The notes under the pieces: model-generated
What the model saw: only the letters and a program-made list of their open reading frames with translations
What the model was told of the DNA's origin: nothing
The model's database searches: none
IMG/VR virus record: IMGVR_UViG_3300032241_002516
Location: 1 to 42,975 of that record
Strand: one strand, 5' to 3'
Source of the DNA: a virus
Length of the DNA stretch: 42,975 bases
Part shown: one piece after another, positions 326 through 7,404 of the stretch
How the letters are laid out: every line of letters begins with the position of its first letter
How positions within the stretch are numbered: the stretch's first letter is position 1
Program-made: the position numbers and the translations under genes

Positions 326-1699
326 TTATTGCGGTGTACTATTTAATTCAAAAAACTTTTGGCGAAGTTGCTGTTTATCAAAAACATCTATCTGTCCAGG
401 AATAACATTATTTTTAGGTTGTGTTGTTGGTTCTTCATCATCAACTATGCTATCGTCAACCTCAAAGTGACCGTTTGCTGTGTTTACTCTAACCGAGAAG
501 GTTAAACCATCCATTCCGTACCTATTTTTCATAATATGAAACCTACCAGTGCCATTAACTTTATCTTGACGTTTACGTGAGAGAGATATCGCTATATCAG
601 TGATCATTATTTTATCATATGATCCTGCGGCTTTATCACCCTCAATAATATCGTCTTTTGCACCTGCACGATTAACTTGAGAAACCGACCAAATTGGCAG
701 ATTTAATTCTCTTGCTAAACCTTTAGTGCCAAGATAAATATCATCAATTTCATCCTTTCGCTCACGATTATTTCTTTTTGATCTCAACAGATCAACATAA
801 TCTATAATAATCAAATCAGGTTTGAATCCTAAATCAATACATTTTTTAATGTGAGATTCTAATGTAGAAATTGTTGCTTTGCCTGGTGAGTATTCTCTAA
901 TAATAAGTTTACCGGGTAATTCAGCAATTGTTTCTTCTACTTTGGTTTTATAACGAGTAATTTTACTAACATCTATTTCTGTAAAAAACGCATCATAACG
1001 TCTTCCAACATAATCTGCACCTAATTCTAATGTGTAATGTATAACATTATATCCCATTTTTACAGCATGGCCTCCTAAAGCAATTAAGGACCAAGATTTA
1101 CCTCCACCAGGATTACCAAATATCAAGCCAAAATCACCCCCACCTATTCCACCTTGAAGCAATTCATTGAATTTATCCCAAGGAGTAGCAATAGGTGTTC
1201 TATGTTCTTCTCTATAACGCGATTCTGTGTCTTTTTCATATTCATGACCTATGTTTTTGTCTTGGCCTGCTTTTAAAGCATTATCAACCAAAATTCTAAT
1301 AGAATCATAATCACCAGCATTTAATAAATCAACACTACCTAATAGTGCTTTTTTCAATTGTTGGTTTTTACAAAAATTCCCAAATTCTTCTTCAACATAT
1401 TTCAAATCCTCGTCTGAAGATTTATATGCTTCTTTAAGTTGTTCTTTTATAGATAATTGTAATACTTCATTATCAATTTTTTTCAATTCTACTTTCAATA
1501 CTTCCATTGAAGGTACAGTGTGATATTTTTGATAATATTTTAATACTTCTCTAATAATCCATTTTTGGGCATTATTATCGAAATATTCTTCACTTAACAC
1601 ATCGTGAATGTTTAATAAAAATTCTTTGTGTGTTAATAATGAGGACAACACTTTGATCTGGAATCCTGGTCCATACTGTGATAAATTTATTAATGTCAA
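326..1699 (-). CDS. Replicative DNA helicase, DnaB/T4 gp41 type
   Basis: A 457-residue RecA-fold hexameric helicase that would unwind the fork 5' to 3' on the lagging strand. Residues 1-150 form the helical N-terminal domain. Walker A GNPGGGKS is at 195-202, Walker B LIIIDY at 296-301, and the SQVNR motif at 340-344. The C-terminal tail is hydrophilic and may contact primase or loader. The start is TTG at 1697-1699: an in-frame stop lies just upstream and no in-frame ATG precedes the conserved LINLSQYGPGFQIK segment. No separate primase gene is visible here. The start region lies inside one copy of a 32-bp repeat whose other copy follows the exonuclease gene, so the two genes were probably adjacent ancestrally. 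Confidence 0.93.
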   Translation of the reverse strand: MTLINLSQYGPGFQIKVLSSLLTHKEFLLNIHDVLSEEYFDNNAQKWIIREVLKYYQKYHTVPSMEVLKVELKKIDNEVLQLSIKEQLKEAYKSSDEDLKYVEEEFGNFCKNQQLKKALLGSVDLLNAGDYDSIRILVDNALKAGQDKNIGHEYEKDTESRYREEHRTPIATPWDKFNELLQGGIGGGDFGLIFGNPGGGKSWSLIALGGHAVKMGYNVIHYTLELGADYVGRRYDAFFTEIDVSKITRYKTKVEETIAELPGKLIIREYSPGKATISTLESHIKKCIDLGFKPDLIIIDYVDLLRSKRNNRERKDEIDDIYLGTKGLARELNLPIWSVSQVNRAGAKDDIIEGDKAAGSYDKIMITDIAISLSRKRQDKVNGTGRFHIMKNRYGMDGLTFSVRVNTANGHFEVDDSIVDDEEPTTQPKNNVIPGQIDVFDKQQLRQKFFELNSTPQ

Positions 1700-1806: not shown

Positions 1807-2625
1807 TTATATATCTACCACACTATCTATTTTTATGTCTCCTTTTAAATTTAATTCAATACCACTATAATTGTTTAAATTTAATAATTTTTCAATATCA
1901 TCTAACGAATACATATACCAATTAATTACTTTATCATAATCTTGAGGTTTAATTATAAATTTAACTTGAAATTTATTTTTTTTTAATGGTTTGTCAATTA
2001 AAATTGAAGGATAACTATAAGTAGGATTAGATTTAAAATATTCTTTAGTTTCAAAAGGAAATAAAAGTTTATTTAAATATCCTACAATACCTTTTGGATA
2101 TTTTTCAATTAATTTATTAATAAATTCTTTTTTAAGTATAGGTAATTCAGATTGTTTTTCTTTTACTTTTTTTTCTAAATCATTATTTACTTTATAAGGT
2201 ATATTTTTTTCTTTTAAAAAGGATACTGTTTTTTTAACTTTTGATTTTTGTAAAGTATTCATTAATATTACTTCCTTTAAATAATATAATATAGGAATAT
2301 ATGGATCATTAGTATAAAGTACAGTTTCTTCATATGGATCCCCATAAGATATAACTTTATAATCTTTTAATATTTTTTGTTTATCAAGTACTAAAATACA
2401 TTCATCCGTTGGATCGTCTCCACCAAATCTATTATTATCTTGAGTAAAAAATATTACATTTTTATATTCAGGTAAAATTCTTAATTTATCATAATTAAAA
2501 AAATAATTAATATTATTACTTTTAAGTTTATTAGATTCTATAATTTTTATACAGGATGTATATGAAGTCCAATGATATAATTCATTATTATTTACTCCCT
2601 CTAATAAATCAATTAATTTAATCAT
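1807..2625 (-). CDS. Putative ADP-ribosyltransferase-like cargo protein
   Basis: A 272-residue protein from the ATG at 2623-2625. The frame extends upstream to a TTG, but those 11 codons come from the duplicated helicase start, so the ATG is preferred. Residues 17-21 (YHWTS), 59-69 (FFTQD..RFGG), 79-85 (VLDKQKI) and 97-100 (PYEE) follow the H-[Y/T]-E layout of a small phage family with an ART-like fold, often seen as LYHYTS...LSTTR...VLDG...DE.E. This match is from memory and remote. The N-terminus MIKLIDLLE/G resembles a T4 capsid-targeting peptide ending in the gp21 cleavage motif (L/I)xE. T4 Alt is a packaged ADP-ribosyltransferase, so an injected effector is a reasonable hypothesis. It is Lys/Asn/Ile-rich and more AT-rich than its neighbours, suggesting late acquisition. 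It interrupts an otherwise tight replication operon. Confidence 0.5.
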   Translation of the reverse strand: MIKLIDLLEGVNNNELYHWTSYTSCIKIIESNKLKSNNINYFFNYDKLRILPEYKNVIFFTQDNNRFGGDDPTDECILVLDKQKILKDYKVISYGDPYEETVLYTNDPYIPILYYLKEVILMNTLQKSKVKKTVSFLKEKNIPYKVNNDLEKKVKEKQSELPILKKEFINKLIEKYPKGIVGYLNKLLFPFETKEYFKSNPTYSYPSILIDKPLKKNKFQVKFIIKPQDYDKVINWYMYSLDDIEKLLNLNNYSGIELNLKGDIKIDSVVDI

Positions 2626-2628
2626 ACA

Positions 2629-2638
2629 TATAAATATT
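2629..2638 (-). promoter_or_regulatory. Late-promoter-like element before the ART-like gene
   Basis: Coding strand AATATTTATA, directly after repeat copy A and only 3 nt before the ATG. The spacing is shorter than at other copies, so a transcript from here would be leaderless. It may instead be a remnant or a chance match in AT-rich DNA. Confidence 0.35.
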
Positions 2639-2669
2639 GATAAATTTATTAATGTCAAAACTATTTATT
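2638..2669. repeat. 32-bp direct repeat, copy A (exonuclease end)
   Basis: Identical to 1679-1710. This copy contains the TAG stop of the exonuclease gene (2661-2663) followed by a relic of the helicase start (TTG ACA TTA ATA). It records that the exonuclease and helicase genes once met here with a 2-nt spacer. Confidence 0.9.
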
Positions 2670-3704
2670 GAAACTATTTAATACTTTGAATGTATCGTTT
2701 AACCAATACTCTTTATTTTTAATTAAATGACCTAGGCCATCTTCACTGTAATATCGTAAAAATCCTTCAATATTCAAAGAAGGAACTTGTTCTTCTACAA
2801 TTTCTTCTAAAAATTCTTTTTCTACATCACCTAATAATGGATTTTTTAAGTTCATTATCTTAAAATTAGTCTCTAAACGACTTCTATCCATTACCACCCT
2901 AGAATAAACAACGTGTTCTTTATATTTAGAAGCACTTAATTCAAATAAATCATCTAAACTCATAGGTGTAGTCTGTAGTTCAGGAAATTTTTTAAATATT
3001 CCTTTTTCACCTAATCCTTTTACACCTGGTATTTTATCTGAATTATCACCTAAAAGTGTTTTGTATAAAATAAAATTTTCAGCTAATACTCCGAATTTGT
3101 TTTTAATCATTTCGCGGGTATAAAATTCCTTTTCAGTGGGACGATAAACAATAACGTTTTCATTTATTAACTGTAAGAAATCTTTATCACTTGAAACAAT
3201 ATATACTTTAGAGCCACATTTTTTAGGTAAAATATCGCTGTAATAAGCGATAATATCGTCGGCCTCAACTTTATCAATGGAAATGGTTTTAACGGGTAAA
3301 CAATCCAGATAATGTATTAATCTGCGAATTTGATCTACTTTAGCATCATTTTCATCTCCTAAATTTTCAAATACATCCCAATTTGTAATACGAGTTATGT
3401 GTCGGCCGGATTTATATTCGGGGAGTAGATTCTTCCTGCTTGAGGAAGAACCTATTCCGTCGAATACAATATACATTGCTGTAGGTTGAATTTGATGTAT
3501 CAAAGCACCTAAAGATCTTATAAAACCTCCTAAACCACCGATATGTGACCCTTTATCATTTATGAAATTTATCATAGCAAAGTTTCTCAAAAACAGATTT
3601 AATCCATCTATTAATAAAACTCGGTCATGTACTTTATCATCGGTTATTTCCTTCTCAGACATATTGTTAAGAAGTTTTAATAATTCTTTATTCTTCATCT
3701 TCAT
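2661..3704 (-). CDS. 5'-3' exonuclease / flap endonuclease, T4 RNase H type
   Basis: A 347-residue PIN/FEN-family nuclease expected to remove lagging-strand RNA primers. Metal-binding acidic residues sit in family positions: LLIDGLN 30-36, VFDG 80-83, VEADD 146-150 and SSDKDF 171-176. A helix-turn-helix (H3TH) DNA-binding motif follows, GDNSDKIPGVKGLGEKG, at about 219-235. The frame also has an upstream TTG and a later ATG; I chose the ATG at 3702-3704. The start overlaps the end of the recombinase gene by 17 nt, implying translational coupling. Length is near that of T4 Rnh (305 aa), with a modest N-terminal extension. Confidence 0.92.
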   Translation of the reverse strand: MKMKNKELLKLLNNMSEKEITDDKVHDRVLLIDGLNLFLRNFAMINFINDKGSHIGGLGGFIRSLGALIHQIQPTAMYIVFDGIGSSSSRKNLLPEYKSGRHITRITNWDVFENLGDENDAKVDQIRRLIHYLDCLPVKTISIDKVEADDIIAYYSDILPKKCGSKVYIVSSDKDFLQLINENVIVYRPTEKEFYTREMIKNKFGVLAENFILYKTLLGDNSDKIPGVKGLGEKGIFKKFPELQTTPMSLDDLFELSASKYKEHVVYSRVVMDRSRLETNFKIMNLKNPLLGDVEKEFLEEIVEEQVPSLNIEGFLRYYSEDGLGHLIKNKEYWLNDTFKVLNSFNK

Positions 3705-4782
3705 CAAAATCTGTGTTTAGTACATTTAAATTTTCTTCCCATTGTGAATTATCTTCTTGGATATCGTAAGTACCTTTTCCTAGAATACCAACCCATTCAC
3801 TTGAATGTTGATCTTTATATTTTTTAATTACATTTGGATCATCCTTGATAAAACCATGAACTGTACTGATAATAGTACCTTTTGTAGTAATACCATTAAC
3901 GTGATTTTTATCACATGCTACACGAGTACGTAAGGCAAATTCTACTTTTTTCTTATCCTTAATAGCCTCAATTTTAGATGTACCAGCGTTGGTAATATTA
4001 CCAAAAGTTAAACATAAAGAAGCATCATAATACATGGTATCACCACCTTTATTTGTCATCCTAACTTGTTCCATTGGTGTTTTAGGACGAGTATTACCTG
4101 TTTTATTTACAATAAGTAAAGTATTGGTATAAGGTGATGATTCTTTACGTGACATTACAATCTGTTGGTTTACAAAATTACCAAACTGATTAGCAATAGC
4201 ACCTGCATTCCACATAGCATCATTTTTACCATGGTCTAAACTCATTTGACAAGGTACTGAACCTATAGAATCCCATATAAATAAAAGATCATAAGGTAGA
4301 TCACCACGTTTTTGTTCATCTAAAAGATCAATGATGAAAACAGCGATATCTTCAATTGCATTCAATGTTGTACGGTCTCTATAAATAAAGAAACCTTCAT
4401 GATTTACAACATTTTCATTTTCATCTAAAACATCCACCATTTCAAAACCCATTGTTTTCCAGTGATTCCAATCGTGTTTCATTTCGGTGATAATCAACAC
4501 AGGTAAAACTCCCATTTTTTGTGCGCTTACAGCAGCCTCAATTGTGGTAGTGGATTTACCCGTGTTGCTTCTACCTCTTACAGTAACAATATGGCCCATA
4601 GGGATACCCGGTATGGAAAGTGTTTCTTGAAGAGCAGGTGAGAATGGTATCCAACGTTGCTCTTTAAATTTAATATTTGCAGATAATCCCTTTTTTTCCT
4701 TGAATTTATTCAAGTCAAACTTAGATCTAAGTTCGGAGGATACTGCTTCAGTCAGCGATGCTGATTTTTTAATTTTTGCCAT
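3688..4782 (-). CDS. uvsX: RecA-like recombinase UvsX
   Basis: A 364-residue strand-exchange ATPase of the UvsX/RecA family, used for recombination-dependent replication and repair. Walker A GRSNTGKS is at 70-77 and Walker B LLFIWD at 166-171. A glutamine-containing loop (NQFGNFVNQQIVMSR) follows, then LLIVNKTG. The C-terminus is acidic (DFDEDEE), as in UvsX, where it helps regulate ssDNA binding with gp32. The gene lies 16 nt after the SSB gene and overlaps the nuclease gene, so the three are probably co-expressed. No UvsY-like mediator was recognised in the window. Confidence 0.93.
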   Translation of the reverse strand: MAKIKKSASLTEAVSSELRSKFDLNKFKEKKGLSANIKFKEQRWIPFSPALQETLSIPGIPMGHIVTVRGRSNTGKSTTTIEAAVSAQKMGVLPVLIITEMKHDWNHWKTMGFEMVDVLDENENVVNHEGFFIYRDRTTLNAIEDIAVFIIDLLDEQKRGDLPYDLLFIWDSIGSVPCQMSLDHGKNDAMWNAGAIANQFGNFVNQQIVMSRKESSPYTNTLLIVNKTGNTRPKTPMEQVRMTNKGGDTMYYDASLCLTFGNITNAGTSKIEAIKDKKKVEFALRTRVACDKNHVNGITTKGTIISTVHGFIKDDPNVIKKYKDQHSSEWVGILGKGTYDIQEDNSQWEENLNVLNTDFDEDEE

Positions 4783-4798
4783 ATTATAACTTGTTTAA

Positions 4799-5644
4799 TT
4801 AATCTTCTTCATCAAACATTGCATCAAATTTGTCTGCTTTGCTTGTTGGTTTTTTGTTGGTGTTTAGGCTGTAGTTTTTAGGGGCTGACTTTGTTTCTTT
4901 TGATTTTTCCCAAGGTAAATCGCTTTCTGCTTCTTCACCTTTTCCTTCATCAATGATAGAACCTTCTTCTTCAGAATCTTCAGGATTCAACCATTCTTGT
5001 AGAGCTTGTTTCATCTCATCATAAGAATATTTCTTGAATATTTCCAACGGATTAGGTTGATTTTCCAACAATGATTTAACCAATGTTTTATCATCTGATA
5101 GTTGGGTTTGTTTTGTACGAGGCATAATAGATGTTTTATTATACTTTGTACCTGTTACTTCCGGTCCTACTGTGGTTAAAGCAATATCTCTACCTTCAGC
5201 AATATCAGTGAAATCACCAACATCTTCATTGTCTGCAAGGTTTAGAAAATCCATATAGGTTTCCTTTCCGAATTGCCATAATTTAACACCTTCATTTTCT
5301 TGACCACGTACTACTACCGGAGCAAATACACGGGTTTTAGGTTCCAATTTACCTGCTAAACGCCAATTTTCCTTGTCGTTTGTTTTACGAAGTTCCTTTG
5401 CAAATTCAACAATAGGATCCTTTTCACCCCAATTCATTGGAGAGATTATAGGTTTGCTTCCGATGTTATAGTGAATTAACACTTCGGTAAATGGGTTTTT
5501 CTTATTGTACTTGTTAGGTACTACGCGAATGGTTTGTTTACCAACGCTTGGTTTGAAGAACACAGGTTTCTTCTCACCGCCTCCTTTTCCTTTGGAGTTT
5601 GACTGCATTGCGCTAAGTCGGCTGCGAATTTCATTTAAATCCAT
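4799..5644 (-). CDS. Single-stranded DNA-binding protein, gp32-like
   Basis: A 281-residue protein with the gp32 layout. A short basic N-terminal arm (Lys/Gly-rich, residues 18-30) leads into an OB-fold core that begins with the family motif FFKPSVGKQTIRVVP at about 29-43. The tail is strongly acidic, ending in KFDAMFDEED; such tails recruit replication partners. The Cys/His zinc ribbon of T4 gp32 is not visible, as in several distant gp32 relatives. It would coat ssDNA and organise the polymerase, helicase and UvsX. The 55 nt before the ATG contain no Shine-Dalgarno sequence and nothing else I recognise. Confidence 0.88.
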   Translation of the reverse strand: MDLNEIRSRLSAMQSNSKGKGGGEKKPVFFKPSVGKQTIRVVPNKYNKKNPFTEVLIHYNIGSKPIISPMNWGEKDPIVEFAKELRKTNDKENWRLAGKLEPKTRVFAPVVVRGQENEGVKLWQFGKETYMDFLNLADNEDVGDFTDIAEGRDIALTTVGPEVTGTKYNKTSIMPRTKQTQLSDDKTLVKSLLENQPNPLEIFKKYSYDEMKQALQEWLNPEDSEEEGSIIDEGKGEEAESDLPWEKSKETKSAPKNYSLNTNKKPTSKADKFDAMFDEED

Positions 5645-5699: not shown

Positions 5700-6149
5700 T
5701 TACAATTCTACTATCTTATAAATTTTAGTATTTAATTGTTTCAGTTCGTTATGATTTGTCAGCAAAATACAATTTTTATAATGCTGCCACTCAATAACAA
5801 ATTTATTATCAACTACACCACCATTTAATTTCTTAATTAATTCATTTAATGCATTAATAGTATATAATGTGTTGCTTTCTTTTTTTCTATGCACCAATAT
5901 TGTATTGGATGGAATGTCACTTACGTTGCCTTGTTCAACGTTATATGTAACTACGTACTCGTCTGTGCTCTTAATATAAAGCACAAACATTTTATTGTAC
6001 ATTATTGTATATGAATTTGTAATGTTTTCCACTAATGGATCAATTCCATCCATAGTAGTAAACGTACAAAACAATCTATTATTCAAATCTGTAATATTTA
6101 ATAGGTTAAAATTCTCCCTATAAATATTACACGGTTTATTCAAAGTCAT
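5700..6149 (-). CDS. Hypothetical protein in replication operon
   Basis: About 149 residues, not recognised. The ATG at 6147-6149 overlaps the polymerase stop by 14 nt; two further in-frame ATGs upstream, at 6176 and 6161, would lengthen it by 9 or 4 residues. The protein has alternating hydrophobic stretches, including KMFVLYIKS and EYVVTYNVE, that suggest a small beta-rich fold, and a helix near NALNELIKKLNGG. No signal peptide or membrane segment is seen. Its position between polymerase and SSB genes suggests a replication-associated role such as a clamp or accessory factor, but the sequence does not show this. Confidence 0.6.
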   Translation of the reverse strand: MTLNKPCNIYRENFNLLNITDLNNRLFCTFTTMDGIDPLVENITNSYTIMYNKMFVLYIKSTDEYVVTYNVEQGNVSDIPSNTILVHRKKESNTLYTINALNELIKKLNGGVVDNKFVIEWQHYKNCILLTNHNELKQLNTKIYKIVEL

Positions 6150-7404
6150 AATCTGATCCATAACTAAATTTAACATTCAACCCGCGTTGGCTGAATATGT
6201 TTTTGATTTGTTCTAAAATATCTTTTTCCGTATTGTCTGAATCAAATAAAAACGCATCATAAGTATATAATACCAATTTCGTGTTTTTATCTCTTAAAAC
6301 CTTTATTATATCTTTAATGATATAACCATTATTTGTAGTCTCCAAATTTTGCAAAAAATAATTAAATAATTTTTGCGGATTCATATCTTCCAGTTGATTT
6401 TTATAAAATACCTTAGTTGAATTCGAAACACACACCCATTGTTGGGTTTCAAACTCATTCCAAATCCTATCTATATACTGTTGTATTAATATAAAAAATT
6501 CCCACTGTTTATACTCCTTATATATTCCTCCATAAAGTTGTTTAAACATCAATTCTTTTGCTTGTTTTACCTCAACACCAGCATATTGAGCAAAAGCCTC
6601 ATAAATCGGTTTATCAAATTTATATCCCACCAATTGAGCAGCCAATGTTGGATGATAAGCGGAAACATCGATTTCTACAAATTGATCGTGTGAGGGTATG
6701 AAAGCCTGTCGGCAGCCGTTGTCTTTGTTTAAAGCTGCGAAATTAATGCCGTTAAAAGCATTTGAGGGGCGTCCTGTGGTGGTATGCAAATTATATTGTG
6801 TATAAATCTTACCATCTTGAATACTGAAATCATGATTGGTTGGTTTAAAGTATTGGTTAAATAGTGTTTCGTTTATTTTAATGCCATTTTTTTCGATAAA
6901 TAAAAACATTTGTTCTAAATTATCGCTTGGAGTTTTAATGCAATAATGTTTTATTTGCTCAAATATGGCTTCACATTTTTCATAGTGTTTAACTAGCGGT
7001 ATAACGCGGTTTACATCAAGTCGCGAAGAATACGTATTATAAAAATGCTTATGAACTTGGGTTGTGGGATGTATATACGTATTAGGGTGGTGTGGTAAGT
7101 TAATGCAGCATTTAAGTTGAAAATAATATAAAAACGTTTTCTTGTCTCTAACATATATTTCATCAAATTCTTTAAGTACTTGATTTATATGGCTTATACT
7201 TACGGATAGTGCCTCGCTGTGGTTGATACTTAATATGTATCCTTTTTCGTTTTCGTTTGTTAGTGGTTTTATATATACTAGCGATACTTTATTTAAAGCA
7301 GGATGTATTAAATCATTAAAGGGTATTACTTCTACAAACGCTCGTTTGTATTCGCGATAATAAAATGATTTGAGTTGGTCCGTATTTTCAACTAAATAAA
7401 ACAT
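6136..7404 (-). CDS. Divergent small family-A (PolI-like) DNA polymerase
   Basis: A 422-residue protein with family-A polymerase motifs. HTTTGRPSN is at 207-215; motif A FVEIDVSAYHP with catalytic Asp246 replaces the usual DYSQIE; an O-helix-like KQAKELMFKQLYGG at 280-293 matches the K...F..YG pattern; motif C YTYDAFLFD with Asp383 replaces the usual HDE. The Glu after the motif C Asp is replaced by Ala. The N-terminal 170 residues have no clear 3'-5' exonuclease motifs by eye. At under half the size of PolI, it is either a compact replicase or an accessory polymerase. It heads the replication operon and overlaps the next gene. Cys-rich stretches (KCCINL, HYC) are unexplained. Confidence 0.75.
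   Translation of the reverse strand: MFYLVENTDQLKSFYYREYKRAFVEVIPFNDLIHPALNKVSLVYIKPLTNENEKGYILSINHSEALSVSISHINQVLKEFDEIYVRDKKTFLYYFQLKCCINLPHHPNTYIHPTTQVHKHFYNTYSSRLDVNRVIPLVKHYEKCEAIFEQIKHYCIKTPSDNLEQMFLFIEKNGIKINETLFNQYFKPTNHDFSIQDGKIYTQYNLHTTTGRPSNAFNGINFAALNKDNGCRQAFIPSHDQFVEIDVSAYHPTLAAQLVGYKFDKPIYEAFAQYAGVEVKQAKELMFKQLYGGIYKEYKQWEFFILIQQYIDRIWNEFETQQWVCVSNSTKVFYKNQLEDMNPQKLFNYFLQNLETTNNGYIIKDIIKVLRDKNTKLVLYTYDAFLFDSDNTEKDILEQIKNIFSQRGLNVKFSYGSDYDFE

Follow-up and report, generated by a model that had tools for sequence, protein, structure and literature searches.

We identify a compact family-A DNA polymerase of the divPolA1 type, encoded at the head of a T4-like replication operon in a fragmentary phage genome; sequence and fold together give us high confidence in this assignment. 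The protein is a new member of an already published family and is very probably an accessory enzyme that helps the main replicase. Taken as a whole, the explanation that we favor, and consider reasonably probable, is a family-A polymerase that works beside the replicase and synthesizes short stretches of DNA without proofreading. The window, by which we mean the whole stretch of DNA analyzed here, is the entire 42,975-base IMG/VR record IMGVR_UViG_3300032241_002516; this record is a fragment, and the phage's own replicase lies outside its view.

Identification of the polymerase

The name divPolA1 was introduced on the basis of 14 genomes, including that of Flavobacterium phage immuto (Yutin et al., Virol J 2024, PMC11348598; preprint PMC11188092). 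The portion of that paper dealing with immuto-like phages describes divPolA1 as an accessory polymerase encoded in an operon, with a conserved palm, a truncated thumb, and an inactivated exonuclease domain (PMC11348598). In a full-text literature search, the name occurred only in this paper and its preprint, and no measured activity of any member was found. The features of the polymerase gene in the window are as follows.

6136..7404, minus strand: divPolA1-type compact family-A DNA polymerase, 422 aa (stop codon counted in; ORF, immuto homology, model, and Pol I fold match)
7015..7404, minus strand: N-terminal exonuclease-like domain, residues about 1 to 130 (in the model, the match to the Pol I large fragment starts at residue 1)
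6760..6777, minus strand: TGRPSN motif, residues 210 to 215 (T210, R212, P213, and N215 the same in all 123 members)
6649..6669, minus strand: motif A DVSAYHP, residues 246 to 252 (catalytic D246; H251 at the position of the Pol I steric-gate Glu710)
6529..6558, minus strand: motif B K..F..YGG (O-helix), K283-F287-Y291-G292 (conserved in 123 members)
6253..6261, minus strand: motif C Y382-D383-A384, within YDAFLF, residues 382 to 387 (Y382 and D383 100%)

The preliminary description of this DNA had recognized a family-A-like polymerase of 422 residues from the motifs TGRPSN, DVSAYHP, K..F..YGG, and YDAFLF, and had proposed a profile search and a structure prediction as checks; all of the motifs are present, and both analyses were run and bear out the assignment. 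As a lone query, the window protein is too divergent to give a meaningful match in Pfam, PHROGs, or the PDB; a profile of 97 homologs matches the Klenow fragment (E = 4e-10), and 49 of these 97 family members singly match the Pfam DNA_pol_A family (PF00476) at E <= 1e-3, the best with E = 2.4e-14. These matches, together with the invariance or near invariance of the motif residues (see below), indicate that the motifs did not arise by chance. The immuto homolog, which is annotated as "DNA polymerase family A", shares 37.6% identity with the window protein over 99% of the query (tblastn, E = 3e-77). The two proteins are alike in whole-length homology, motifs, operon, and accessory status, and they differ in sequence divergence only, the coresident replicase being unseen in the fragment that constitutes the window.

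Predicted fold and the exonuclease-like domain

An AlphaFold2 model of the 422-aa protein, computed from 94 homologs (the immuto row and two other rows were left out), has a mean pLDDT of 95.1 and a pTM of 0.91. Among the Foldseek matches listed for this model, the best are Pol I-type DNA polymerases (E = 5e-17), and a second structural aligner superimposes it on Mycobacterium smegmatis Pol I with a Z score of 25.5 and an rmsd of 3.6 over 386 residues, the alignment spanning model residues 1 to 422. The model thus predicts a Pol I-type layout, including an exonuclease-like N-terminal domain, in a compact protein. The structural matches listed are DNA polymerases, and T7-type RNA polymerases could sit beyond them. 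With 422 residues compared to about 580 for the Bst fragment, the model aligns end to end, and a thumb truncated as described for the family may account for the missing residues.

The columns corresponding to the Pol I exonuclease acids are occupied by V/I, K, and F in the family, with no conserved acids, in a register that derives from sequence and predicted secondary structure rather than from coordinates. The domain is apparently inactive as an exonuclease, and according to the passages of Yutin et al. on divPolA1, none of the three catalytic Asp residues of its exonuclease domain is retained (PMC11348598). A separate set of positions encoded in 6988-7404 (minus strand), H34, H62, K89, P136, and K139, shows 93 to 100% conservation (98 to 100% for H34, H62, and K89). 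The near invariance of these residues suggests that the domain may have retained a role other than that of an exonuclease.

Active-site residues

Conservation was counted over 123 nonredundant full-length members. Invariant throughout are D246 (Klenow D705), K283, Y291, R212, N215, Q352, E355, Y382, and D383 (Klenow D882); in motif B, K283 and Y291 reach 100%, F287 99%, and G292 97%. Polymerase activity is predicted from the conserved catalytic residues D246 and D383, which would form a two-metal palm site. The likeness to the large fragments of Klenow and Bst Pol I extends over the fold, the catalytic Asp pair, the Lys, Phe, and Tyr of the O-helix, the TGR motif, and the Gln of the motif near 849. 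The divPolA1 proteins differ from these fragments in being about 160 to 180 residues shorter, in having no recognizable exonuclease catalytic residues, and in the replacement of Glu710 by His, the replacement of Glu883 by Ser or Ala, and the loss of Arg754.

In a gap-free profile alignment of DVSAYHP to Klenow DYSQIEL, H251 falls on Glu710, and residue 384 falls on Glu883. Residue 251 is His in all 123 members and Glu in none, while motif C reads YD(S/A) in every one of them, with Ser (57%) or Ala (42%) and never Glu as its third residue. The substitution of YDA for the usual HDE, which the preliminary description had pointed out, is thus real, but it is normal for divPolA1 and not a quirk of a single protein. 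An equivalent of Pol I Arg754 is absent from divPolA1 members, just like those of Glu710 and Glu883, and the kinetics may differ greatly as a result. In the full-size PolAs of this phage clade, by contrast, Glu is retained at position 710, and motif C reads HDQ.

The PolA of phage Tt72 offers a biochemical reference (PMC9324360). It naturally carries Ser at the 883 position, and its S616A variant retains 76% activity; Ala at either catalytic Asp reduces activity to 4%, and Ala at the Glu710 equivalent reduces it to 35%. Hence, the missing Glu883 is compatible with an active polymerase, and since Tt72 PolA is active without the second of the Glu residues of motifs A and C, their absence is no bar to membership in family A. 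Tt72 PolA and divPolA1 are alike as phage family-A enzymes with a nonacidic residue at Glu883; unlike divPolA1, Tt72 PolA proofreads strongly and keeps Glu at the 710 position.

The replication operon and p158

In the window, the polymerase gene is followed by p158, gp32, UvsX, 5'-3' exonuclease, a lone 283-aa ORF, and gp41.

5700..6176, minus strand: p158, conserved protein (41-base overlap with the polymerase gene; no convincing Pfam match)
4799..5644, minus strand: gp32-like single-stranded-DNA-binding protein (phrog_224, E = 4e-12)
3688..4782, minus strand: UvsX-like recombinase (phrog_97, E = 4e-20)
2661..3707, minus strand: 5'-3' exonuclease, Pol I N-terminal family (PF02739, E = 3.4e-32; phrog_107, E = 1.8e-39)
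1807..2658, minus strand: 283-aa ORF between the exonuclease and gp41 genes (no family match)
326..1699, minus strand: gp41-like replicative helicase (phrog_19, E = 1.1e-77)

The T4-type neighbors named in the preliminary description, gp32-like, UvsX-like, and gp41-like, were all matched by their PHROGs (224, 97, and 19, respectively); the gene that it had called RNase H-like is also there but belongs to the 5'-3' exonuclease family just listed. The order p158-gp32-uvsX-exo-gp41 recurs in 46 of 48 nonredundant loci that extend 7 kb or more downstream. Profile searches found no counterpart of the 283-aa ORF in the other fetched loci.

The divPolA1 gene lies directly upstream of p158 in all 75 independently fetched p158 loci with enough upstream DNA, and the two genes overlap in 66 of them. 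We had considered exclusive co-occurrence as proof of a partnership, as p158 and divPolA1 are found in the same six phage records, but a gp32 control recovered the same six and only four distant ones besides. Co-occurrence is therefore mostly a clade marker, and the overlap of the two genes says more about a partnership. An AlphaFold model of p158 reached a pLDDT of only 59 and gave no structural match at E <= 0.001; such a poor model could mean that p158 folds with a partner. The protein contains a highly conserved HRKK..NTLYTINALN..I block. Membership in the operon speaks at most for shared expression and not for the site of action.

Replicases and primases of the relatives

All 11 relatives' records (77 to 484 kb) carry a separate full-size polymerase, which is PolB in 8 and a full PolA in 3. 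The full PolAs (778 to 786 aa) occur in immuto (NC_055915), G005 (the record of L066), and G007 (the record of L089). The preliminary description had advised a search for a gp43-like polymerase; no PolB was found in the 42,975-base fragment, and among the relatives, the 8 records just mentioned carry one. Of the two options that it had offered, a replicase swap and an accessory enzyme, the latter is the better, the replicase being separate in each of the 11 records. T4 gp43, a family B replicase, resembles divPolA1 in being encoded alongside gp32, UvsX, and gp41; it belongs to another polymerase family, and most relatives encode a gp43-type PolB separately.

A profile for the gp44 clamp loader gave a match in each of the seven tested records with PolB but in none of the three with a full PolA. 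A true exchange of the replicase thus seems to have taken place within the clade, apparently along with an exchange of the clamp loader, while divPolA1 stayed throughout. The sliding clamp profile phrog_223 matched only T4 and one relative and is too insensitive. The PolB of the 484-kb phage LR756508.1 (260623-266900) is split over two frames (1022 and 625 aa), a pattern that would result from an inserted gene or an intein.

Those annotated stretches of immuto that we consulted list no primase, and we considered a replacement of the primase by the small polymerase. This candidate was dropped, as a DnaG-type primase (phrog_47) was found in the T4 control and in 10 of 11 relatives' records, all but G009, with ten records shared with the polymerase search; accordingly, there is no missing primase to be accounted for.

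Distribution of the family

A tblastn search of 50,697 phage records recovered six relatives, namely, four Flavobacterium phage immuto records, Microcystis phage Mel-JY01, and one 484-kb uncultured phage. A single-sequence scan of viral contigs found no relatives; an alignment-based scan of IMG/VR did find them, with at least 574 confirmed, and scans seeded from other branches of the family confirmed at least 553 and at least 554, the overlap between scans being uncounted. Ten further matches in genome contigs (L245-L254), whose titles name a metagenome-assembled genome in nine cases and an uncultured bacterium in one, come from bacterial and archaeal assemblies (Flavobacteria, Winogradskyella, Rickettsiaceae, and Nitrosopelagicus) and are probably phage contigs binned with possible hosts.

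In their passages on divPolA1, figure alignments aside, Yutin et al. mention neither the His gate nor how widespread the family is nor the link to p158 (PMC11348598). In its description of barbavirus divPolA2, the same paper presents a comparable case, a divergent PolA of accessory status that accompanies a regular PolB and has no active exonuclease domain; by that description, divPolA2 is set apart by a variable gene neighborhood and an unrelated N-terminal domain (PMC11348598).

Proposed role and alternatives

We propose that divPolA1, like Pol I, would make short DNA stretches without proofreading. The neighboring 5'-3' exonuclease would remove RNA primers and divPolA1 would fill the resulting gaps, and/or, where UvsX has paired 3' ends into D-loops on DNA coated with gp32, divPolA1 would extend these ends; gp41 and the main replicase would then take over. 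The polymerase and 5'-3' exonuclease genes together would thereby recreate the activities of Pol I as separate proteins of one operon. The specific role in gap filling or D-loop extension is put forward tentatively: its place of action is read from the operon, and its function is read from gene order and residues.

Translesion synthesis and an altered choice of sugar are live rivals. As a translesion polymerase, divPolA1 would replace the replicase at damaged template bases by virtue of an open active site and the lack of proofreading. Translesion enzymes usually are accessory copies next to another polymerase, and this arrangement, the compact fold, and the lack of recognizable exonuclease residues are all in keeping with such a role. 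We nevertheless regard it as unlikely, as no lesion-bypass insert or damage-linked neighbor gene was found and the gene lies inside a core replication operon.

The His gate and YD(S/A) could instead point to a relaxed choice of sugar, that is, the use of ribonucleotides or RNA synthesis in the manner of T7-type RNA polymerases, and the invariance of H251 in divPolA1 alongside the Glu retained by full-size PolAs of the same clade would fit this. The Bst counterpart of E710 is E658. According to the titles of 4dqq and 4dqr, a Pol I E658A mutant has been crystallized with rCTP, and in Pol I, Glu710 keeps ribonucleotides out (PMC9324360). A bulky His may itself be the gate, however, the solved-structure matches listed are of DNA rather than RNA polymerases, and the relatives' phrog_47 primases leave no vacancy to be filled; we judge this reading to be quite improbable. 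Slightly more doubtful still is its elaboration into a distinct polymerase of two subunits, which would initiate UvsX-dependent replication and in which the His gate and YD(S/A) would confer relaxed sugar selectivity or RNA synthesis and p158 would be an obligate subunit replacing the shortened thumb.

The constant adjacency of p158 and the conserved H34, H62, K89, and P136 that the exonuclease-like domain keeps as its own would also suit a catalytically dead polymerase fold acting with p158 as a structural or loading factor; this is very improbable, as the invariance of both catalytic Asp residues and the conservation of motif B in the 123 members point to selection for catalysis. Least credible is the replicase swap of the preliminary description, in which the 6136-7404 product would be the replicative polymerase in place of gp43: the gene is grouped with gp32, uvsX, and gp41, and no PolB was found in the fragment, but the swap is not supported in view of the other full-size polymerase in every relative with a large record, the absence of recognizable proofreading residues, and a length about 160 residues below that of the aligned Bst Pol I fragment.

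The favored reading of divPolA1 as an accessory polymerase thus indicates that the enzyme encoded beside the T4-type module is a widespread accessory enzyme rather than a swapped replicase. With at least 574 IMG/VR stretches, divPolA1 is far more common than the 14 genomes on which it was first described would suggest, and the changes of Glu710 to His and of Glu883 to Ser or Ala, together with the p158 neighbor, give this named family concrete predictions on sugar selectivity, fidelity, and the need for a partner.
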